IMG/VR virus record: IMGVR_UViG_3300025322_000072
Location: 1-40,784 of that record
DNA: 40,784 bases
Strand: one strand, 5' to 3'
From: a virus
Under the pieces are notes generated by a model that searched no databases, was not told where the DNA came from, and saw nothing but the letters and a program-made list of their open reading frames with translations. The position numbers and the translations under genes are program-made. Positions 15,899 to 34,988 of this stretch are shown here, one piece after another; position 1 is the stretch's first letter; the number at the start of each line of letters is the position of its first letter.

Positions 15899-17432
15899 TC
15901 TCCCTCTCCTTTAGGGCAGCTTGTACGTCTGGATGTCGCTGGATCTGATCCATGGCTCCCTTTAGCTGGTATTTGAAAAATGACTCGAGATCCCTCTGGA
16001 GCATTCGCTCTAGCTTCTCCCTTGTTTCTTTGTCGATGGGGTTGCCTGATTTTTCTCCTGATCGTAGTGCTTTTTCAACCACTTGATTTTCATCTTCTTG
16101 CGTTGAGTTTTCATTGGCTTCATCAGGATCTTTGTCACCCTCCTCCTCCACTGGCTTTTCAACAGGCTCTGGCTTTACAGCTTGTTGAGCTCCTCCCTCC
16201 CCAGGTGTGTGCTCCAAAGGCACTTCCATAAGGTTGAGCATCCGCAAGAAAACATCTCCAGATCTAACTGCGGCAAGGCCAATCTCTTTTCGATATTCAT
16301 TGACCGTGATACCACCCATTCTCAAACCGTTGTTAGCTTTTTCCCAGACAATGAGCCTCTCCTCCCGCAGGGCTGGAACCTCACTGAAATCCCAGTGCCC
16401 CTCTAAGTTGGAGTCACCAAATTCAGGTATCAGCTGGTTGTCGATGACGTCATTGAAGTTCTGGTAGATGGGCACCAGGGTATCCTCCCACCAAGCCAGT
16501 CTAGCCTCCTTATAGTTAGCAAAGGTGGATCGATCTAGCCCCACTTTTGCCCCTACGATAATAGGAGGCACTCGCATTGTAGCACAGATCCTAGCCTCAT
16601 TCCTCGAGTCAAGAGTTGAGAACCCCATTTCCTCAAAAGTGGATCCTGTCTTTTGATACTCAGCGTCACGATCCAGAACCGCTGGTGCGCTCCAGTTCCT
16701 AGCCCCTCCATATCGATCTGCCCACTTGCGCCTGATCTCTTCTGCCTCAGCATCACGGAGCCTCTGAGTGGTTTTGATAATACCTGGGGGAGCTCCTCCC
16801 TCTTGGAAAAAGGTTTTGATGTAATCGGTGGAGGTATTATCGATCTCCACGATCCTAGCAGCTACAGCGACTGGAGGCCACGTGTGGAAAAGGTTCAAAG
16901 GATCGAATAGCTTGAAATCAAGCACATCTCCCCTATCCAAGAATACAGGGGGCAGCCCAGGAACCGTGTACTGATAGGCTGCGATCATCTGAGTTGAACT
17001 CGGGATAGGATTGACCCAATCTGGGCGCAGTGGCCATAGGGCTATAACGTTGCCAGCGTTATCCCTTTGCTTCTCGAATATAGCCCTGCCAGCTAGCTCC
17101 TGATAAATGATGATCGATGACCAGAAGTCATACTCACTCATAAAGGGGTTAGGCTTTTTGAGGAGCCTCGCAAGAGGATGGTTCCTATCCCTGATCATCT
17201 CCTCCTTAGAGGTATTGTAGGGCTTCAAACGAACCTGACTGGCTGTACTAGCCTTTGCCGAGATACAGGCAAAGATCAGTTCATTCTTGCGCCACGCCTG
17301 ACGAACCAGGCTCTCAAAATTGACGTCAGCATAGATTGGCCTCCCCTCTTTCCAAGTCTCAACTAGAGTGACCATAGTCTTGAGGCCAGCTATCTGAATT
17401 GCAGCTCGTTGGATGAAATTCAGCTTGCTCAT
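15879..17432 (-). CDS. Portal protein, HK97 family
   Basis: A 517-residue protein forming the dodecameric vertex through which DNA is packaged. Supporting stretches are NELIFACISAKASTASQVRLKPY, HPLARLLKKPNPFMSEYDFW, LAGRAIFEKQRDNAGNVIALWPLRPD, DVLDFKLFDPLN and GGAPPGIIKTTQRL, and the C-terminal helical part with a very acidic segment near 430-455. The start overlaps the terminase stop (ATGA), and the end overlaps the MuF gene. Normal length for the family. Confidence 0.93.
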   Translation of the reverse strand: MSKLNFIQRAAIQIAGLKTMVTLVETWKEGRPIYADVNFESLVRQAWRKNELIFACISAKASTASQVRLKPYNTSKEEMIRDRNHPLARLLKKPNPFMSEYDFWSSIIIYQELAGRAIFEKQRDNAGNVIALWPLRPDWVNPIPSSTQMIAAYQYTVPGLPPVFLDRGDVLDFKLFDPLNLFHTWPPVAVAARIVEIDNTSTDYIKTFFQEGGAPPGIIKTTQRLRDAEAEEIRRKWADRYGGARNWSAPAVLDRDAEYQKTGSTFEEMGFSTLDSRNEARICATMRVPPIIVGAKVGLDRSTFANYKEARLAWWEDTLVPIYQNFNDVIDNQLIPEFGDSNLEGHWDFSEVPALREERLIVWEKANNGLRMGGITVNEYRKEIGLAAVRSGDVFLRMLNLMEVPLEHTPGEGGAQQAVKPEPVEKPVEEEGDKDPDEANENSTQEDENQVVEKALRSGEKSGNPIDKETREKLERMLQRDLESFFKYQLKGAMDQIQRHPDVQAALKERENGKEKA

Positions 17433-18748
17433 ACGTATATACCTCCATGTTTCCTATCATAGCTATTGGCATACATTGTCGCATATCTAGTAGGATCCAT
17501 CCCATGGTCATCTTTTTTGACAGGGATCTCTTTTTTGTTTTTATCGCTCCAAACATACGTCTCAAATTCACCCTCAGTATTTACAGGGCTATAATTTTCA
17601 ACAAGATCATGATCTGTCTCAACTAGGCTATCCCGCATAAGGAAAAGGGATCTAGCCTTCAATCGATCCTTTACAGCTTGGATCCCTACAGTAACTGCCT
17701 TTTCAGCAGGGATGGTTGGCCCAATTCCATTCTCCTCTAGGGTAGCACGATCCTCAGCATCCCAGTCACAAACCCAAGCCTCTATTTGCTCCTCCCCAGT
17801 TAGCTTGAGGATCTTTTCAGCATGAACTTTGACTGTCCTGCGGGTCATATAGATCTCCCTATACCTGTACATGTTGTCATCAGGGGAGATAGCCCACCAT
17901 TGAGCTACAAACGGATTGGTGTACCCAAAATCGACTGCAATGAACCTCCTCCACTCGGGAGGTATTTTGAACCTATCTACTAGATGGATGGCTGGATCGT
18001 ATTCATCATACACGAGCCCTTCAGCACTGACCCACATCCCCAGTCTGAGCCTTTTATAACGAACCCCAGAGAGGTTATCTAGCTTTGCCAAATAGGCTAG
18101 CCCTCGAGCTGTCCAAGTATTTGTCTTGTGATCGAATAGGATGGGGTTATCCTCATGCCTACTCTGCAATAATTTCAAAGTGCCCTGATCTCTCCTGTTC
18201 AGGATCCAGTGGGAGCTTGGCCCAGGGTTGCAATCTCCAAATACCTGGTTGTAAGGCATGACGCCATTCCTAGCCCGAGTTGTTAGATCCTCCCAGTCCT
18301 CCTGTGTAGCCTCTGTAGCCTCTTGAACATAGATAATATCATAATCCGTGGACATAATCTTAGAGCTCTTGTCCAAACCCCCTACGACAAGGACAGAGCC
18401 GTTGCTGAACTCATAATGCTGCTCTTGGGTTCTCCAGCGAACCGTGCCATTAGAGGGCACCACGTGTTTCTCAAAAGTCACCATGCCAGATTGCGTCAGG
18501 CTCTCCCTCGTTTTCCTGACCATAAGCCCTCGCATGCCAGGGTATTTTAGCCCGCAGATGTACAGCTTCTCGAGGCAACCCCTAGACTTGCCAGTGCCTG
18601 CTGGGCCATCGATGATGAACTCGGGATCGTGCAACCTGAACACCTCCCGAGAAGCCCCAAATGGTTCATAGGGCTTGCTCTCGGGAGGAGCCTCTAGAAT
18701 ATTCGGGAGGATCTTATTGCTGCGGGTTACAACCTCAAAATTGCTCAT
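17429..18748 (-). CDS. terL: Terminase large subunit
   Basis: A 439-residue packaging motor with ATPase and nuclease domains. Walker A is GPAGTGKS (48-55). The Walker B region is YDIIYVQEATE with E143 as the probable catalytic Glu, and GDCNPGPSSHW is the coupling motif. The nuclease domain begins at RFIAVDFGYTNPFVAQWWAI, and further acidic residues occur at VCDWDAEDRA. The start overlaps the upstream gene (ATGA). Length is typical of the compact PBSX/T4-like terminases. Headful versus cos cutting cannot be decided from sequence. The circular map would fit headful packaging. Confidence 0.95.
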   Translation of the reverse strand: MSNFEVVTRSNKILPNILEAPPESKPYEPFGASREVFRLHDPEFIIDGPAGTGKSRGCLEKLYICGLKYPGMRGLMVRKTRESLTQSGMVTFEKHVVPSNGTVRWRTQEQHYEFSNGSVLVVGGLDKSSKIMSTDYDIIYVQEATEATQEDWEDLTTRARNGVMPYNQVFGDCNPGPSSHWILNRRDQGTLKLLQSRHEDNPILFDHKTNTWTARGLAYLAKLDNLSGVRYKRLRLGMWVSAEGLVYDEYDPAIHLVDRFKIPPEWRRFIAVDFGYTNPFVAQWWAISPDDNMYRYREIYMTRRTVKVHAEKILKLTGEEQIEAWVCDWDAEDRATLEENGIGPTIPAEKAVTVGIQAVKDRLKARSLFLMRDSLVETDHDLVENYSPVNTEGEFETYVWSDKNKKEIPVKKDDHGMDPTRYATMYANSYDRKHGGIYV

Positions 18749-19149
18749 ATTTCATCAGGGTTGACGCCTGCATAGATCTTGACCAGATTGACGTTTGCCA
18801 CCAAGGGGCTATTCGGGAACACTGGGCCATCAACGTGACTATGGACAAACTTCACTAGCTCTGTCCACTGCTTGACATCCCTGATGGATAGCTTCTCTCC
18901 AGTGGCAGTCAGTGTCTCACCATTCACGATAAGATCAAAAACCATGGCGGACATAGATCTGGCATAAGTCATCCGTTTGCCAAACCCCATATGGAACCCA
19001 GACTGCCTCCCTCTGCGCTCTAGATTGCTGGCAAACTTTCTGGGGGCATTCTTCTTGTTGCGAAAGGGTCTGGCAGAGGATCCTGTGACAATCTCTCCTC
19101 CTCCTACATAATTGGCAATCGCATTTTCGTGGTCAATAGCCTCACTCAT
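18745..19149 (-). CDS. Gene in the small-terminase position, unknown
   Basis: A 134-residue basic protein, MSEAIDHENAIANYVGGGEIV. It lies directly upstream of and overlapping terL, which is the usual place of the small terminase subunit. I do not see a clear helix-turn-helix. The middle (FHMGFGKRMTYARSMSAMVFDLIVNGETLTATGEKLSIRDVKQWTELVKFV) looks like a mixed alpha/beta domain. So small terminase is an inference from position only. It is the first gene after the 19173-19202 hairpin. Confidence 0.5.
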   Translation of the reverse strand: MSEAIDHENAIANYVGGGEIVTGSSARPFRNKKNAPRKFASNLERRGRQSGFHMGFGKRMTYARSMSAMVFDLIVNGETLTATGEKLSIRDVKQWTELVKFVHSHVDGPVFPNSPLVANVNLVKIYAGVNPDEI

Positions 19150-19226: not shown

Positions 19227-20063
19227 TCAGTCCTCAGCAGGAGCTTTTTCAGCCTGGATCTTTTTCAATCCAGCAGCGATTTTGGATCTGACATCCTTAG
19301 AAACAGGAACCCCACCGATGATCACGGTCTCAGGCTTTTCTGAGGGGCTAGCCACTGTGCTAGGAGCCTTTTTAGTGGGCTTTTTCGCAGCAGGAGGGGT
19401 TTTGGTAGCCTGGGCAGGGGTTTTCGAGCCCTTAGAGGAGCCCGACTGGCTAGGGCTGGATTTTACGGCTGCCTGAGGGGCAACTTTCCCCTTAGAGGCT
19501 GGTTTGGAGGGGGCAACGACTTTGGCAGGAGCCTTAGAGGTAGCCTTGGCAGGAACCTTGGTGGCTTTGCCGACTGGGCGATCATTGGCAGGAGCCTTTT
19601 TCGCAGGAGCCTCTTTGCCATGGGTTTTCTTGGCAGGAGCCTTGGCCACTTTAGGAGCCTTGGGGGCAACGGTGCGCTCGAGGTTGCGAACCAGCTCGAG
19701 GTTCTTTTTGTTCACCGCTGCCTGAGGCACAAACCATTTATTGTTGAAGATGACTGCCCTGAAGTCATCCGTGATAGGGATCCCAAAGCCACGATTGCCA
19801 CCGCAAGCCTTGTGCCAGAACCGCCCTGCGGGGATCCCAGCCTCCTTTACAATCTCGAGAGCCTGGGCTAGAGGGAGATAGCCCTTTGGGACAACCTCCA
19901 CGCTGCGGGCAGCTTTGGTAGCCTCAGGATCTACTCCTCCCGAATAACGAGCCTCGCACTCTGGGCCAATTCCCTTTTGGATTGATTCAGGGAGGGTCAA
20001 CTCCTTGCCACAGATGCGGCAGGTGGGGCTTACACTTTTGGGGGTCACAGCTTTTGCGTTCAT
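19227..20063 (-). CDS. Zinc-ribbon protein with histone-like KAPAK tail
   Basis: A 278-residue protein from ATG 20063, chosen because AAAGGAA precedes it; an ATG five codons earlier has no ribosome site. Residues ~10-36 form a zinc ribbon with CRICGKELTLPESIQKGIGPEC, of the kind I recall as DUF6011. Residues ~50-115 are a small globular domain (GIPAGRFWHKACGGNRGFGIPITDDFRAVIFNNKWFVP). From ~125 to 255 the chain is Lys/Ala/Pro-rich (KAPAKK repeats) like histone H1 tails, ending in a short ordered helix (SKDVRSKIAAGLKKIQ). DNA compaction or nucleoid binding is a fair inference. Confidence 0.7.
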   Translation of the reverse strand: MNAKAVTPKSVSPTCRICGKELTLPESIQKGIGPECEARYSGGVDPEATKAARSVEVVPKGYLPLAQALEIVKEAGIPAGRFWHKACGGNRGFGIPITDDFRAVIFNNKWFVPQAAVNKKNLELVRNLERTVAPKAPKVAKAPAKKTHGKEAPAKKAPANDRPVGKATKVPAKATSKAPAKVVAPSKPASKGKVAPQAAVKSSPSQSGSSKGSKTPAQATKTPPAAKKPTKKAPSTVASPSEKPETVIIGGVPVSKDVRSKIAAGLKKIQAEKAPAED

Positions 20064-20104
20064 TTCAGTTCCTTTCATTGGGACAATATGAGGGTGGGTG
20101 ATTT

Positions 20105-21151: not shown

Positions 21152-21406
21152 TCAACTGAATTTTCGACTTGCCCACCCGAGTTGACGGATCTGGGAGCCC
21201 TGGTGGGGGTAGAAAATCTTGGGTGTCTTCTCAAAGCAAGTGATGCACACTCCTTTATAAGGGGAGAAGCAAAACCTCTGGCAATCGGTGCACAACGTCA
21301 GGAACCAATCCCAGTGAACAAAACATTGAGCAGCCTCCTGATAATCGGCTATCTGATAATAGGCTCCTCTACAGGCAGGGCATCGGACAGTGGGGATCCT
21401 AGGCAT
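21152..21406 (-). CDS. Double zinc-ribbon protein
   Basis: An 84-residue protein from ATG 21406 (MPRIPTVRCPACRGAYYQ). GGAGG lies five bases upstream of this ATG, which favours it over the ATG four codons earlier. Cys pairs occur as CPAC, LCTDC and VCITC, with an extra Cys/His between them, so probably two zinc sites. It is the first gene transcribed after the repeat-rich region and could be a regulator or replication accessory protein. Function not recognised. Confidence 0.65.
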   Translation of the reverse strand: MPRIPTVRCPACRGAYYQIADYQEAAQCFVHWDWFLTLCTDCQRFCFSPYKGVCITCFEKTPKIFYPHQGSQIRQLGWASRKFS

Positions 21407-21513
21407 GGCAGCCTCCATGGGTAATGTAGGGTTGAATATTTTTGGTGTGTGGCTTTTCCATAGGGCATCTCCTCTCCCCCATCCTCAGCCAGAAATCAGG
21501 ATACCCCCCTCCC

Positions 21514-21772
21514 CTATGCATAGATTTCAAGTACACATTACCCTCTACACCCCCCATGGATACAATTTTAGGGCTCGAGATCCTCCTCGAGCTAGGTTTT
21601 ACAAGGTATAGCCCCCCTTTTGCAGGGTGTAATGTAGGGGGTAATGCATAGGATAAGGAGGAGGAGCCCTCTAGAATAGAGGATCCTACCCACTTCAAGA
21701 GAAACATTTTGTCGAAAAGCCATGTGCTATGCATAAAACACCTTGACAGAATGTACCAAAATCTATGCATAG
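21514..21772. repeat. Four CTATGCATAG palindromic sites
   Basis: Perfect copies at 21514-21523 and 21763-21772, a 9/10 copy at 21727-21736 and an 8/10 copy at 21642-21651. Likely binding sites for a dimeric protein, either replication initiator or repressor. The two closest copies are 36 bases apart, a spacing that would suit cooperative binding. Confidence 0.65.
21573..21592. repeat. Short inverted repeat (GCTCGAG / CTCGAGC)
   Basis: Seven-base arms 21573-21579 and 21586-21592 with a six-base loop, inside the candidate origin. Hairpin or operator. No U-tract on either strand. Confidence 0.5.
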
Positions 21773-21785
21773 AATTTACATCCGC

Positions 21786-22076
21786 TGAGAAAATGGGTGT
21801 TTTTATGACATTTTCCCCAAAAAACACATGAGAAAATGGGCATCTCGAAAAGGCTGGAGGAGGATCCGCTGACAACGATGTCGAGAAACAGGGTGTTTTT
21901 AGCCGTAAAATTGGAAAACGATGCCAAGCTCCCTCTAGCCTCCAGCCTCCAGCCCTTTTTCCAAACTTTTTATAGCAAAATAAGGATATTTTTAGTATAT
22001 AGAAAGATGAAAAACACACTGGAGGCTGGAGGGCTGGAGGGAAGTTGACATTTTCCCACGATTTTAGCCGTAAAAT
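21786..22076. repeat. Direct and inverted iteron-like repeats
   Basis: TGAGAAAATGGG at 21786-21797 and 21829-21840. GGGTGTTTTTA at 21795-21805 and 21891-21901. TTTTAGCCGTAAAAT at 21897-21911 and 22062-22076. TGACATTTTCCC at 21806-21817 and 22046-22057, with a variant starting near 22131. GAAAATG and its complement occur in both orientations. Confidence 0.6.
21930..22042. repeat. Long inverted repeat around an AT-rich core
   Basis: Arms 21930-21951 and 22020-22042 are reverse complements except for one substitution and one inserted base. Both consist of GGCTGGAGG-type units. The 68 bases between them are strongly AT-rich, with runs of A and T. Further GGCTGGAGG copies lie at about 21852 and 22117 and inverted at about 22141. 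This is the strongest origin-like element in the window. Confidence 0.65.
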
Positions 22077-22129
22077 ACACACTTTTCTCTCCATCGTTGT
22101 CAAGATGCAAAAAGAGGGCTGGAGGTAAT

Positions 22130-22159
22130 TTGACATCTTCTCCAGCCCTCCCACATAAT
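22130..22159 (+). promoter_or_regulatory. Possible plus-strand promoter
   Basis: TTGACA (22130-22135), 18-base spacer, CATAAT (22154-22159). It points against all genes, into the 3' end of the 198-residue gene, so it would make an antisense RNA or an origin primer. The TTGACA is also part of a repeated element in this region, which weakens the promoter reading. Confidence 0.35.
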
Positions 22160-22755
22160 TAGGCTTCTAGATCCTCTTTGGTGGTTAGATCGTTAGCTCT
22201 TTTATAGCTATTTACAATGAGTTTAGCCACCAAAAGTAGATCAACATCAGAATTGAGCTCCCTAGTAGCCCTGGTCAACAGTGCATTATACCCAACAACA
22301 TCATGATTAGCACGAGCAACCCCCTCTACAACCTCCCTGACCCACAGCCTCGCAATCAGGAGAAGCTCGAATGGCCTCCATAGGGTAACCAGATCCTGAT
22401 TATAGAGCTTGAGCCACAGGATCTCGAGATCTGTAGAGGGTTCTCTCCACATTATCCTGAATTTTCTGATCGCTGATAGCTTTTTGGTGAAAGGGATGAG
22501 GTGTTCTACCACTTTATCATAAGCCAATTCAGAAATTCCATGGGTTTGGAGGATCCCGATGTTTTTCATTACTCTTGCGAGGGCTCGAGCCTCATCTTCA
22601 CTGGCATTGAGTTCTCCTTTTATGTCTGCGACAATACGATCCATTACCTCTTGCTCACGAGGATCCGTGCGCAGCCTGGACATCAAGCCCTCAAATTCTT
22701 GCCCGAGATCTCCTCCTAGATCCTGTAGCCCTTTGAAAATGTCATCCATGTTCAT
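22159..22755 (-). CDS. Hypothetical helical protein next to the origin-like region
   Basis: A 198-residue protein, MNMDDIFKGLQDLGGDLGQEF, with AAAGGAGG before the start and ATGA overlap with the upstream gene. Almost entirely helical by residue pattern. Residues ~100-150 have a hydrophobic and Trp-rich helix set (LVTLWRPFELLLIARLWVREVVEG). Its stop borders the repeat region, so an origin-binding or replication-control role is conceivable but not supported by any recognised motif. Confidence 0.6.
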   Translation of the reverse strand: MNMDDIFKGLQDLGGDLGQEFEGLMSRLRTDPREQEVMDRIVADIKGELNASEDEARALARVMKNIGILQTHGISELAYDKVVEHLIPFTKKLSAIRKFRIMWREPSTDLEILWLKLYNQDLVTLWRPFELLLIARLWVREVVEGVARANHDVVGYNALLTRATRELNSDVDLLLVAKLIVNSYKRANDLTTKEDLEA

Positions 22756-23162: not shown

Positions 23163-23414
23163 CTAGCCTCCTGCTGAGAAAACGACAACAGCCGTGGTGA
23201 TAAGTATGGCCAAGGTTAGCAGGGCTAGGAGGATCGTGCACCCGAGCAAAGATTGTGCCCTGTCTAGAGCCTTGTTTTCCTTTAGCTCCTCTAGGGAGCT
23301 CGAGATAGGTTCTCCCCAAGGCTCTGAGCTCAGGGGATGGAGGTAGGGGAGATCCCCCCCAGTGATTTTAGGCTTGAATGCCTCTTCCATTTTCTTGATC
23401 TCTTCTGTTTTCAT
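23163..23414 (-). CDS. Single-pass membrane protein, unknown
   Basis: An 83-residue protein, MKTEEIKKMEEAFKPKITGG, with AAAGGAG upstream. The soluble N-terminal ~57 residues are followed by one C-terminal transmembrane segment (CTILLALLTLAILITTAVVVF) and a short GG end, so it is tail-anchored. It lies in the early gene block, away from the lysis genes. Superinfection exclusion or membrane anchoring of replication are possible roles. Confidence 0.65.
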   Translation of the reverse strand: MKTEEIKKMEEAFKPKITGGDLPYLHPLSSEPWGEPISSSLEELKENKALDRAQSLLGCTILLALLTLAILITTAVVVFSAGG

Positions 23415-23426
23415 TTTAGATCTCCT

Positions 23427-23756
23427 TTAGTAGGGGGCAGGGGTTGGGGGAGGGGGCAAAGTGGGTAAAATCGTTGGGCTAGGGAGGCTAGGGGCTCCTA
23501 GGGTGGGTGTAGGGAAAGTAGGGGCAGGGTATCCAACCCAGGGAGGAGGATAAGCATCGAAAGGTGCGGGGTAGGGATAAGGGGCTGGATAGGCATCGTA
23601 GGGAGCTGGATAAGAGATCTCTAGCTCCTCCTGTACTGGGGGCTTGGGGGGCTTCACCCAGTGCTGCGGATCCTCCAAGATAGGAAACATGAATATAGCC
23701 AGCAGGAGCAAAATAGCTCCAATTCTCAACCACTTTTTATAGCCTTTAGGAAACAT
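23427..23756 (-). CDS. Membrane-anchored Tyr/Pro-rich (YPAP) protein
   Basis: A 109-residue protein from ATG 23756 (MFPKGYKKWLRIGAILLLLA), with GAGGAG seven bases upstream. Basic start and one hydrophobic helix (residues ~11-25), then ~80 residues of Pro/Tyr/Ala-rich chain with repeated YPAP and YPYPAP and an end PPPPTPAPY. The topology predicts an inner-membrane anchor with an extended tail outside. Such tails can span the wall or bind other proteins. Chloroflexota proteins often carry YPAP linkers, a weak host hint from memory. Expressed in the early block, so probably not lysis. Confidence 0.65.
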   Translation of the reverse strand: MFPKGYKKWLRIGAILLLLAIFMFPILEDPQHWVKPPKPPVQEELEISYPAPYDAYPAPYPYPAPFDAYPPPWVGYPAPTFPTPTLGAPSLPSPTILPTLPPPPTPAPY

Positions 23757-23997
23757 TGTCAATCTCCTCTTTGGGATCCTCTAGGATCCGCACGAAACAT
23801 TGATGCGGGAGAGGCAGTGGGTGAGGGGTGTAGTCTAGATCGTAGAATACTACAGGGATGCCCCTTTTAGCTGCCTCCAGCGATAAGGTCACGCAATGGG
23901 CGTGGCAGACGTACAAGATCTTGTTCTTTGTGCCCCTGAACCAAAAGGCTATAGGGTAGGGGCACTGTTTTACATTACTCTCCTCAGCCTTTGTCAT
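23746..23997 (-). CDS. Hypothetical small protein
   Basis: An 83-residue protein, MTKAEESNVKQCPYPIAFWFRGTKNKILYVCHAHCVTLSLEAAKRGIPVVFYDLDYTP. Start overlaps the upstream stop (ATGA). Pattern of a small alpha/beta domain with CHAHC near residue 31, a possible metal site. Function unknown. Confidence 0.6.
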   Translation of the reverse strand: MTKAEESNVKQCPYPIAFWFRGTKNKILYVCHAHCVTLSLEAAKRGIPVVFYDLDYTPHPLPLPHQCFVRILEDPKEEIDNVS

Positions 23998-27214: not shown

Positions 27215-29083
27215 CTATTGATAAACAATTTCTGAGTATTTGGTTTTCTGGGTCTGTCCTAGCTTGATCATATCTCCATAGTTATCCCCTACCTTAGCAT
27301 CAGTCAAGAATGGGATCCCAAAGAGATCTTCAACCTCCATTATCTTGGAGATAGCTCGAGCTGTTTCCTCAACTCCCTCCTCCACCACTTCTATAAGGAG
27401 CTCATCGTGGACATAGCTAACGATCCTAGCAAACCCCTCCTCCTTAGAGGAGATCCAGTGATCAGCCCTGATCGCAGCTATCGACAAAACGTCTGCGCAA
27501 CCTCCTTGGATAAGGGCATTAGCTCCCTTATACATTTCCATAGGGTTCTCTTCACGCCAATATCGCCCTGACCAATATCGCAGGTAGCCTCCCTTTTTGC
27601 ATTCCTCCTGAACAGCCTTTAGCCAAGGTTTGATCGTTGGAAAGGTTTTCCAATAATCCCCAGTTAGCTTCTGGGCTTGTTCCATCGTCATATTCAATCT
27701 GAACCGCAGGGAGCCCATGGTCATTCCATAGATCAAGCCAAACGAGATCGATTTTGCCCACTCCCGATGAACCTCATCCCTTTTGCCCCAGCATTGCTCG
27801 GCAACGTCAGCATGGACATCCCTCCCAGAGGCTAGGCTTTTCACCATAAAGGGATCTCCTGAGAGGATCCCGAACATCCTCATCTCCATCTGCTTATAGT
27901 CGATTGAGAGGATCTTGTATCCAGGTCTGGCTATAAAGCCTCTCCTGAGATTGAAGATCCCAGTGCGCTCCTCCATCTCTCCCGAGTGCGCTTGGCCAAT
28001 GAATCTGGTTCTATACTCAGAGGCTATATTTTGCAAATTAGGATCTCCACAACTCAGCCTCCCTGTCCGAGTTCCAGTCAGTTTGAAGCTCGCATGGATA
28101 ACATTATCCTTTGTATCTACTAGCTTGAGCCACTTCTTGACTGTATTCTGGAGGAGGGCTGTTTCCCTTAGAGTAGCCACTAGCTCCCCTAGGGGGTGAT
28201 TGGCTTTTTCTGTCAGGATGAAAGTGCTGGTGAGGAACTTATTGTACTTGCCTGCCTCTGGGTGACGGCTGATATCTACTCCAGCTACAATGAAGGGGTT
28301 GATGGGTCTTGGGAACCCGAGATTTTCATAGAGGGCTGCCGATAGCTGCTGATGAGATCTCCAGTTGAAGTTATAGCCGACAGCATCGAATAATTGTTGC
28401 TCTTGGATCTTTTTGACTTTTTCGAGCTCGACAACAACCTCCTCCATAACCTTGGTATTGATTTTCCAGCCACCCCTCTCTGTCTTCCATACAACCCTGA
28501 AAAATGTCATCTCCTTTGCAAACATACTTACAAGCTGCTCCTCCTCTAGCTTTGCCCAGAGAGTGGTGAACAGCTGATAAGTCACTACGCAGTCATTCAC
28601 GCAGTAGGGAGCCACAATCTCCAGTGGCCAATCCCATATCTTTTTCCTAGGAGGAGCTTGCGCTACATGTTGCCTTTTCGAGTTTGACCCCAGGAAAACC
28701 TTTTCAGCTTCTGCGAGGCTTTTCTTATATCGGCTATCAATAAGATGAACCATTATCATCGTATCAGCCAGTTGCCATTTCACCTTTCCTAGATCGATCC
28801 CTAGGAAATGCAGGTCAAATTTTAGGTTATGCCCGATGACCCATGTATCCTCTCCCCAGGCTCTAGCATATCGCCTGATGCGGATCATGTCATTATTTGT
28901 CTTGATAGGAATGTAGCCTGTAACCCCTCTAGAGGGGCAGTGAACTCCTAGCCCGATGGGTTTGTTGACCCACCAGAATAATCCGTTTGTTTCAAAGTCA
29001 ATAACGACAGGAGCTCCATCGCACTTGGCTAGCTCCTCAGCCTCTATTAGAGGCAGCTTGGCTATCAATTGTTTCTTGGCCAT
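27215..29083 (-). CDS. polA: Family A DNA polymerase with 3'-5' exonuclease
   Basis: A 622-residue replicative polymerase of the T7/Pol I type. Exonuclease motifs: VIDFETNG (D29, E31), HNLKFD (86-90), YCVND (160-164). Polymerase motifs: A, SIDYKQMEMR (D395, R402); B, R440-EWA-K444-SIS-F448-GLI-Y452; C, VHDE (559-561). The 5'-3' exonuclease is absent, as usual in phages. F448 corresponds to E. coli Pol I F762, the residue whose Phe/Tyr/Leu state has been correlated with phage lifestyle. Motif A has DYKQMEMR instead of DYSQIELR. The gene overlaps the zinc-ribbon gene by 47 bases. AAGGAG precedes the start. Confidence 0.96.
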   Translation of the reverse strand: MAKKQLIAKLPLIEAEELAKCDGAPVVIDFETNGLFWWVNKPIGLGVHCPSRGVTGYIPIKTNNDMIRIRRYARAWGEDTWVIGHNLKFDLHFLGIDLGKVKWQLADTMIMVHLIDSRYKKSLAEAEKVFLGSNSKRQHVAQAPPRKKIWDWPLEIVAPYCVNDCVVTYQLFTTLWAKLEEEQLVSMFAKEMTFFRVVWKTERGGWKINTKVMEEVVVELEKVKKIQEQQLFDAVGYNFNWRSHQQLSAALYENLGFPRPINPFIVAGVDISRHPEAGKYNKFLTSTFILTEKANHPLGELVATLRETALLQNTVKKWLKLVDTKDNVIHASFKLTGTRTGRLSCGDPNLQNIASEYRTRFIGQAHSGEMEERTGIFNLRRGFIARPGYKILSIDYKQMEMRMFGILSGDPFMVKSLASGRDVHADVAEQCWGKRDEVHREWAKSISFGLIYGMTMGSLRFRLNMTMEQAQKLTGDYWKTFPTIKPWLKAVQEECKKGGYLRYWSGRYWREENPMEMYKGANALIQGGCADVLSIAAIRADHWISSKEEGFARIVSYVHDELLIEVVEEGVEETARAISKIMEVEDLFGIPFLTDAKVGDNYGDMIKLGQTQKTKYSEIVYQ

Positions 29084-30407: not shown

Positions 30408-31316
30408 TTATAGGGGTAGATATTCGATATATGACTCAACGTGATGGACATAGGGGAGGTTCAGCTTTTGGTTATACGGCTGGATCCTTGCGAATGTCCT
30501 GATCTTGCTACTCGAGGCTCTAGCTAGCAACGAGGGGTTATCCTCCCAAAGGATGACATCATTCTCCTTTCCAAGCTCACTAGCCAATAAGATCCTCCCA
30601 TCATCCATTATATGAAGTTCATCGATAGGGAGGTTGTACCTGCGGAACCAGAATAAGGTATCTTTGAAGATCCTTTTGTAGATATGGGCAGGTCTGGCGG
30701 TCACGGCTATAATGTAGTAGCCATTTCTCTGTTTGAGGTTGTCTAGAGCCACTAGGGCATCGACATAGGGCTCCAGATCCCTATAGCCCCCTGCCTCCTC
30801 ATATCGCTCCTTTAGTTTGTAATATTCTGGATACTCAAGCTCTAGAGATTCATCTAGGAGGATCGATGTCATATCTTTGGTGGGGGCTATCCCTTGCCCA
30901 GAGAGCCACTTGAGAAAAGAGGTTCTATAATCGGCTATAGTTCCATCTACATCAGTGATCAAGATCTGCCTCCCTCTTAGAGGCTCTCTGAACTCCATCT
31001 TCAGCCTGAAGTCTAGGATGTCTCCTTTTTCGTGGATAGCCTCTAGGAGATCCTCCTCTGTATAGCCCCAAGCCTGAGCTATAGAGATAGCATACTTTGT
31101 AACGTCTGCCACCTCCTCTAAGACATTGAGGGGTATAACCTTTTTGCCATCCTCATTGCGATGCCTTTTCCACTTTATAGCCTTCAGCATCTCAGCTACC
31201 TGAGAGGTTATCCCTAGGAGGTATTGCTGAGTCCAGTAATGAGGATCCTCGTGCCCCTCTATGCCAAAGATCTTTTGGTTGTACTCCCTTTGCTGTTTCC
31301 AAATTCTAGATAGCAT
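30408..31316 (-). CDS. MazG-like pyrophosphohydrolase fused to a HAD phosphatase
   Basis: A 302-residue two-domain protein. Residues 1-~105 are MazG-like, with an EMLKAIKW helix and NVLEEVADVTKYAISIAQAWGY (E67, E68, D71), the metal-binding ExxD helix that hydrolyses NTPs to NMP and pyrophosphate. Residues ~115-302 are a HAD phosphatase: motif I DVDGT (122-126), motif II T206-ARP, then ELHIMDDGRIL, and motif IV LWEDNPS. The order resembles 5'(3')-deoxyribonucleotidases or the phosphatase half of polynucleotide kinase. Together they could take a dNTP to the nucleoside. Overlaps the upstream gene by 11 bases, with GGAGG upstream. Confidence 0.8.
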   Translation of the reverse strand: MLSRIWKQQREYNQKIFGIEGHEDPHYWTQQYLLGITSQVAEMLKAIKWKRHRNEDGKKVIPLNVLEEVADVTKYAISIAQAWGYTEEDLLEAIHEKGDILDFRLKMEFREPLRGRQILITDVDGTIADYRTSFLKWLSGQGIAPTKDMTSILLDESLELEYPEYYKLKERYEEAGGYRDLEPYVDALVALDNLKQRNGYYIIAVTARPAHIYKRIFKDTLFWFRRYNLPIDELHIMDDGRILLASELGKENDVILWEDNPSLLARASSSKIRTFARIQPYNQKLNLPYVHHVESYIEYLPL

Positions 31317-34220: not shown

Positions 34221-34988
34221 TTACCTCCAATATTTTGCTAGTTTAGCATAGGTAGGATTTTCAACGACTGGTGGCAGTTTGCCACTTCTATCTTTGGTCA
34301 CGTATTCAGCAGCATCAAAGGACATCATCCTAGGGCTCCCCTCCCCCTCAGCTTTGTAGAGATAGCCGACAACATCCATCATTCGACACAGGTTCCTACT
34401 CGTTTGTTTCCCTATAAGCTGGGGCTGAATAAGATCTGTGTCAAATACCTTAGAAGTTGTCTGGGCGATCATCACTACATTCATGGGCAGCCGTTTGTAG
34501 TTCCTGACCATTGTATCAAAGTCATATAGCATTTTTCCATAATCGCTTTGCCCTGGCAGGCTGTCGTAGGATCTGCGTATATTCGGGAACTCCTCTATGA
34601 TCGCTGCCATCCCTAGCTGCTGAGCTTCATTCAGTGAGTCCAATACAACGGTTTTGTACTTATGTTCACCTCCTAAAAGGAACTGATAGACTGCATCGAT
34701 TTCATCCCAGCGAGTTATACTCACCCTGTCCACTTTCCTGCGGATCGATGCCATTCCATCATCAATATCTAGGAAAAGGGCATCTGGCCAGCTTGAGGCA
34801 AAAACCGTTTTGCCTACACCACTTTCACCATACACCAAAAATCTTTTCCTAGTATCAGAGAGCCCCCCAACAAACTTCTCGAGGATGAGCTGGGGCTCCT
34901 CTCCCTCCTCTGTAGCTGTAGAGGCATTCATATCCTCCTCAGCCCATTCTTCATCTTCAGTGGGTTCTATAGCCTTTTTCTTTGCCAT
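34221..34988 (-). CDS. Sak4-like RecA-fold ATPase
   Basis: A 255-residue P-loop ATPase. The Glu-rich ~45-residue start is followed by FLVYGESGVGKTVFASSW (Walker A 54-61), LFLDIDDG, and TVVLDSLNEAQ (Walker B). This is the RecA/RadB-like single-strand annealing or recombination ATPase group called Sak4, which usually lies beside an SSB and a PD-(D/E)XK nuclease, as here. Start overlaps the nuclease stop by one base (TAATG). Role: DNA pairing in replication-linked recombination. Confidence 0.85.
   Translation of the reverse strand: MAKKKAIEPTEDEEWAEEDMNASTATEEGEEPQLILEKFVGGLSDTRKRFLVYGESGVGKTVFASSWPDALFLDIDDGMASIRRKVDRVSITRWDEIDAVYQFLLGGEHKYKTVVLDSLNEAQQLGMAAIIEEFPNIRRSYDSLPGQSDYGKMLYDFDTMVRNYKRLPMNVVMIAQTTSKVFDTDLIQPQLIGKQTSRNLCRMMDVVGYLYKAEGEGSPRMMSFDAAEYVTKDRSGKLPPVVENPTYAKLAKYWR

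Follow-up and report, generated by a model that had tools for sequence, protein, structure and literature searches.

Known and predicted palindromic origins in described phages and plasmids

Origins of replication are rarely known for uncultured phages. Among the described systems, Streptococcus phage Sfi21 carries a region (302-bp noncoding element, phage-encoded resistance) that is stated in PMC6356513, citing Foley et al., to work as an independent origin. In our palindrome scan, the annotated Sfi21 origin (34487-34784), which adjoins the D5-type primase, was found to contain a 251-bp palindrome (91 bits vs 37; DNA fold z -8.3); its A/T core is flanked by inverted AGTAACTA-type repeats. The archaeal plasmid pRN1, which has an AEP-SF3 replication protein, cannot replicate without the stem-loop located downstream of ORF904 (PMC4234260), and it was proposed from this system that AEP/D5-type replication proteins assemble at stem-loops. 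This stem-loop is about 100 nt long with a large loop, and it lacks the iteron arrangement that many plasmids typically have. A stem-loop was also predicted 3' of the replication gene of Bordetella phage BIP-1 (Berkner et al. 2014, PMC4234260), and the prediction matches the site of the strongest palindrome that we found in that genome (133 bp with inverted GTTTGCCTC units, 88 vs 57 bits), which lies about 450 bp 3' of the AEP/SF3 gene.

The locus described here is a large intergenic gap in a phage genome, and we consider it most probably the replication origin of this phage, of the palindromic AEP/D5 kind. An earlier note, made from the sequence alone, had called it origin-like. We find that description well supported because distant relatives keep a palindrome in the same place with different sequence and because the experimentally studied Sfi21 origin has the same anatomy; pRN1 offers a further precedent. 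What is new is that the palindrome keeps a conserved position at a gene junction apart from the proposed initiator gene, that pairing is conserved although sequence is not, and that the same scan recovers an experimentally supported phage origin.

Several features are common to this locus and the described systems. As in Sfi21, a long imperfect palindrome carries inverted tandem arm repeats around an A/T-rich core, and both D5-type primase and Prim-Pol functions are encoded. However, the two regions have no sequence similarity, the Sfi21 origin lies directly 3' of its primase rather than 2.6 kb off, and primase and helicase are separate proteins in Sfi21 where a single 839-aa protein is found here. 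The likeness to pRN1 lies in a replication protein with AEP and SF3 domains and a winged helix, the last a probable one here, and in a palindrome on the 3' side of its gene (PMC4234260), whereas pRN1 is archaeal, its stem-loop adjoins the gene, and necessity is proven there for what is a candidate here. BIP-1 differs in the shorter distance to its gene and in its Prim-Pol and PriCT_2 domains, as opposed to the AEP-TOTE type seen here, and its origin is a predicted one. RSF1010 offers a looser parallel, in that RepB' is an AEP-fold primase starting at the ssiA/ssiB hairpins (PMC4234260), but this plasmid uses separate RepC and RepA proteins, iterons and short single-strand initiation hairpins.

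The intergenic palindrome and its genome setting

The window, meaning the whole 40,784-nt stretch of DNA that was analysed, looks like a complete circular phage genome, with a 127-bp terminal repeat that gives a circle of 40,657 bp. The minus strand carries nearly all of the clear genes. A helicase, an exonuclease, a Sak4-like annealing protein, ThyX, the family A DNA polymerase and the 839-aa primase-helicase make up the replication side, and the large terminase subunit (TerL) with the probable small terminase (TerS) just ahead of it marks the packaging side (Table 1). Close relatives were limited to records of the same phage in viral collections, all of them 100% identical. No DNA match to an isolated phage was obtained for the part of the window at 17.2-25.0 kb, and no sequence relatives of the gap were found among phages or among plasmids.

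Table 1. Positions in the window of the intergenic gap, its repeats and the landmark genes
Feature	Position	Strand	Remarks
Intergenic gap, proposed origin region	21419-22158		flanked by the genes of the 198-aa (22159-22755) and 88-aa (21152-21418) proteins
Imperfect palindrome, 233 bp	21870-22102		centre ~21986; outer arms TGACAACGATG / CATCGTTGTCA
A/T-rich core, candidate unwinding or loop region	21957-22016		80% A+T
Two overlapping GGCTGGAGG units, left arm	21939-21954	-	
Two GGCTGGAGG units, right arm	22024-22040	+	
Outlying GGCTGGAGG copy, left of palindrome	21852-21860	+	
TTTTAGCCGTAAAAT copy 1, left arm	21897-21911	+	
TTTTAGCCGTAAAAT copy 2, right arm	22062-22076	+	
Small hairpin	22114-22150		arms GAGGGCTGGAG / CTCCAGCCCTC at 22114-22124 and 22140-22150
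CTATGCATAG exact site 1	21514-21523		
TAATGCATAG, partial CTATGCATAG site	21642-21651		8/10
CTATGCATAA, partial CTATGCATAG site	21727-21736		9/10
CTATGCATAG exact site 2	21763-21772		
Large terminase subunit (TerL), landmark	17429-18748	-	
Probable small terminase gene (TerS)	18745-19149	-	named by its place before TerL and conservation in relatives
Proposed initiator, 839 aa	24686-27205	-	AEP (TOTE-type) primase, helical linker, D5-like SF3 helicase, probable C-terminal winged helix
Replication-module DNA polymerase of family A, with 3'-5' exonuclease	27215-29083	-	

The gap is, as the earlier note had it, the single large stretch of the genome without a credible gene. A 251-aa ORF does run across it on the minus strand (21399-22154), extending from beside the upstream stop until it overlaps the following start, and could be taken as a protein-coding gene. 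However, its codon score was -0.03 compared to 0.1-0.2 in clear genes, its composition is odd and Cys-rich, and no family match was found. Some small genes score equally low, so the codon score alone is not conclusive against this ORF; taking these features together, we regard a coding function as very improbable.

The feature noted at this site is real and larger than first described, since the inverted GGCTGGAGG arms around an A/T-rich core are the inner part of one 233-bp palindrome that is 72-74% self-complementary. It is the strongest palindrome genome-wide and far above chance, with a self-alignment of 116 bits compared to at most 31 in shuffled sequence and 34 for the next best in the genome. 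Its single-stranded DNA fold reached z -9.5, and no further copies were found in the same genome. By A+T content, the central 60 bp of the core rank in the top 0.01% among the 60-mers of the genome.

The smaller repeats were more mixed. Six of the nine genome copies of GGCTGGAGG fall inside 274 bp, in and beside the arms (Poisson P ~6e-11, calculated post hoc), and a scan with the GGCTGGAGG pattern returned contigs of this phage and apparently unrelated ones. At least six repeat families had been proposed for the gap; many of these are short two-copy matches of the type that chance produces. Four CTATGCATAG sites had been counted, but two of these are exact and two partial. All of them lie outside the palindrome, and no recurrence of the sites elsewhere was found.

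The earlier note recognised no known initiator and offered the 198-residue neighbouring protein as a possible carrier of this function. This protein had no family match, and tblastn found no counterpart of it in the distant relatives; it is therefore a poor candidate, whereas the 839-aa protein, combining an AEP primase with a D5-like SF3 helicase, is a recognisable one. Its gene is on the same strand at 2.6 kb from the palindrome, with small genes in between and the palindrome on its 3' side. The AEP domain was matched by PF22548 (E 1.6e-22), a DUF5906 match fell below the cut-off, and both the primase motifs DxD and SGGKGYH and the SF3-type Walker A/B motifs GSGKTT and VLDN are conserved. 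In a structure model of medium quality (pTM 0.43), the protein resembled the CAPP Prim-Pol (Z 14.1), and residues 325-835 resembled the poxvirus helicases D5 and MPXV E5 as well as AsfvPrimPol (Z ~8); RepB' is also in the structure list. Residues 747-828 were modelled as helices and a beta hairpin (pLDDT ~80-89) with no clear separate match, and from this model the C-terminal ~80 residues are probably a winged helix.

Other features of the window were also recorded. A minus-strand protein at 19227-20078 combines an N-terminal Cys motif (CRICGKELTLPESIQKGIGPEC) with a long tail of Lys, Ala and Pro; in several relatives its homologs are encoded close to the palindrome or to the terminase genes. 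The minus-strand gene at 23427-23762 encodes a proline-rich protein with YPAP-type repeats and no known family, and the one at 30408-31316 (minus strand) appears, from weak Pfam scores, to be a fusion of a MazG/dUTPase_2-like N-terminus with a C-terminus resembling a 5'-nucleotidase (NT5C). Two contigs from metagenome 3300025289 that are identical to the phage end at most 6 bp apart at 23173-23180, a site roughly 1.1 kb away from the palindrome.

Palindromes at the replication/packaging junction of relatives

Relatives were found through alignment of the primase and comprise distant phages in which the complete replication module has the gene order seen here, with primase identities of 38-44%. 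The palindrome scan covered either the near-whole contig or the junction only, and a shuffle null was run for five of them. The junction palindromes scored 50 bits in G002 (null maximum 34), 94 in G003 (38), 105 in G004 (40) and 131 in G007 (34); the palindrome of G008 scored 85 bits (40), and those at the junctions of G011 and G035 scored 94 and 70 bits without a null of their own. The comparison with relatives, which the earlier note had suggested as a check, thus showed seven relatives to have a palindrome there as well, with unrelated letters.

In eight genomes with the shared replication module, this phage included, a long palindrome lies on the side of the primase toward TerS. It is the strongest palindrome (or the strongest among those scanned) between primase and TerS in this phage and in G002, G003, G004, G007, G011 and G035; in G008 it lies between the primase and a homolog of the window ORF at 19227-20078, near the contig end. 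For the seven genomes with both bounds known, all seven with their strongest palindrome in this interval, the chance product was ~7.5e-5. Where the spacing was measured, the palindrome stood 2.7-6.6 kb upstream of TerS, while its distance to the replication gene reaches ~26 kb in one relative. No long palindrome was found in G001, which has the same module and a different terminase, and the contigs of some relatives end before reaching the junction. A perfect 56-bp palindrome in G005 (L196:16858-16913) was not counted, as it sits at the very contig end and may be an assembly artefact; it is probably an assembly fold-back, with a hairpin end as the alternative.

A MAFFT alignment of the palindromes recovered no real homology outside the A/T-rich cores, which were present in six of the seven palindromes measured. 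The arms differ between genomes and self-complementarity is kept, so it is the dyad itself that is conserved and not its letters. This pattern of sequence change argues for a function of the dyad. Of 13 cores, 9 contained AAAGTT/AACTTT as a possible shared motif; since the best hexamer did equally well in 21% of shuffles, this motif is not claimed. The inverted ends TGACAACGATG/CATCGTTGTCA and the divergence of the arms to ~72% could also reflect a recent, non-functional insertion or inverted duplication of the MITE-like type. However, no target duplication was seen in the flanks and no copies occur elsewhere in the genome, and palindromes with unrelated sequences occupy the same place in seven relatives. 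Because of this positional conservation an insertion is disfavoured, and we rate it as highly unlikely.

Palindromes of like anatomy near D5/AEP-type genes were also encountered more widely, in Mae-JY02, Javan51, MaInes, G028, G029 and G032. In Mae-JY02 the palindrome is 29 bp 3' of the D5/AEP-type gene, in Javan51 about 50 bp 5' of it, and in MaInes it occupies the gap between replication and packaging genes. The top palindrome of G028 is 9 bp 3' of a D5-type gene, and inverted TTGCCCTAA-type repeats lie just 3' of the helicase gene in G032. Scanned parts of JCL1032, Lilbooboo, Prithvi and PIN1, which have AEP- or SF3-type genes, did not contain a long palindrome, and the one in Armstrong was only weak. 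Judging from these positives and negatives among isolates, a palindrome near D5/AEP genes is common and not universal, and the placement in Javan51 means that a site directly 3' of the replication gene is not universal either.

The position near the terminase genes raises the question of whether the palindrome is, or adjoins, a cos/pac site or a concatemer junction cut by terminase, with TerS encoded 2.7 kb downstream here. The spacing to TerS given above fits such a role, the palindrome is nearer TerS than primase in the largest genomes, and the contigs of G002, G004 and G008 end in the palindrome region. However, the distance between contig end and palindrome varies among these, and other contigs break off within TerL or primase. 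Dagobah, which has the best-matching TerL of an isolated phage, has terminal repeats and lacks such a palindrome at that place. Among 47 TerL loci chosen regardless of primase, palindromes of at least 70 bits were found at just three, one of which (G029) has a D5-type gene alongside; with so few positive loci and none in Dagobah, the idea that the palindrome simply tracks TerL was rejected. It was also noted that the palindrome adjoins a replication gene in BIP-1, Sfi21, Mae-JY02, Javan51, G028 and G032. A packaging site is consequently an improbable explanation in our assessment. As a separate observation, the relative with the closest TerL outside the AEP group (54%) has a perfect 42-bp palindrome (L010:2324-2365) some 0.5 kb upstream of this gene.

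Transcription, GC skew and a possible route of initiation

With the main genes all on the minus strand and the gap dividing replication from packaging genes, the palindrome might instead act in transcription, either as an extended RNA hairpin or as an array of operators at an early/late boundary, governing the late operon. The transcribed strand folds strongly (z -9.8), and in G003 the arm motif is repeated in a second palindrome. No intrinsic terminator was found, though, and in the window no Rfam family reached the gathering threshold, with sub-threshold miRNA hairpin matches only. G-U mismatches exceeded A-C mismatches across relatives by 40:26 on the transcribed strand; this slight excess was not significant, and selection on RNA rather than DNA was not adopted on this basis. 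A control element would also leave the A/T core and the likeness to the Sfi21 origin unexplained, and the features in its favour are compatible with an origin that is also transcribed. We therefore hold a purely regulatory role to be unlikely.

Further results bear on the origin reading. Speaking against an origin are the 2.6 kb that separate palindrome and replication gene, which do not adjoin, the phages with AEP- or SF3-type genes whose scanned parts had no long palindrome or a weak one, and the lack of one in G001. GC skew, another check that had been suggested for this region, showed no significant break in the window (p = 0.24) and was inconsistent in G003 and G007, and here it counts neither for nor against an origin.

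If the gap is an origin, initiation might proceed as follows. The 839-aa protein would use its C-terminal domain and SF3 beta-hairpins to bind the inverted repeats in both arms, so that two SF3 rings could load on the arms facing each other. The A/T core would then melt, or the arms would extrude as a hairpin, and the AEP domain may prime both exposed strands. Extension by the family A polymerase would allow two forks to leave the origin.

More tentatively, we suggest that the origins of AEP/D5-type phages might be set by architecture (inverted repeats, a long imperfect palindrome and an A/T core) and not by sequence. In the AEP-TOTE branch, the origin may be loose from the initiator gene and held at the replication/packaging border, and a palindrome scan alone could perhaps find the origins of uncultured phages. 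The present case ties a positionally conserved, sequence-unrelated palindrome to a recognisable primase-helicase as candidate initiator and tests the pRN1-derived proposal of protein assembly at stem-loops. Since the same simple scan recovers the Sfi21 origin, origin prediction is testable across AEP/D5-type phages.

The second palindrome of G003 (L201:3837-3960) is related to the first, with the arm motif ACGGGAAAACTTTACCCCG in common, and lies about 3 kb before the helicase gene; it is possibly a second origin or a regulatory copy. The same genome carries at least four intergenic copies of a promoter-like GGCCAAAAGTACTATTTGCGGGAAAAGTTTACTGGCGTACAATA (L198:5292, 6183, 7663 and 8420), which partly resembles the palindrome arm.
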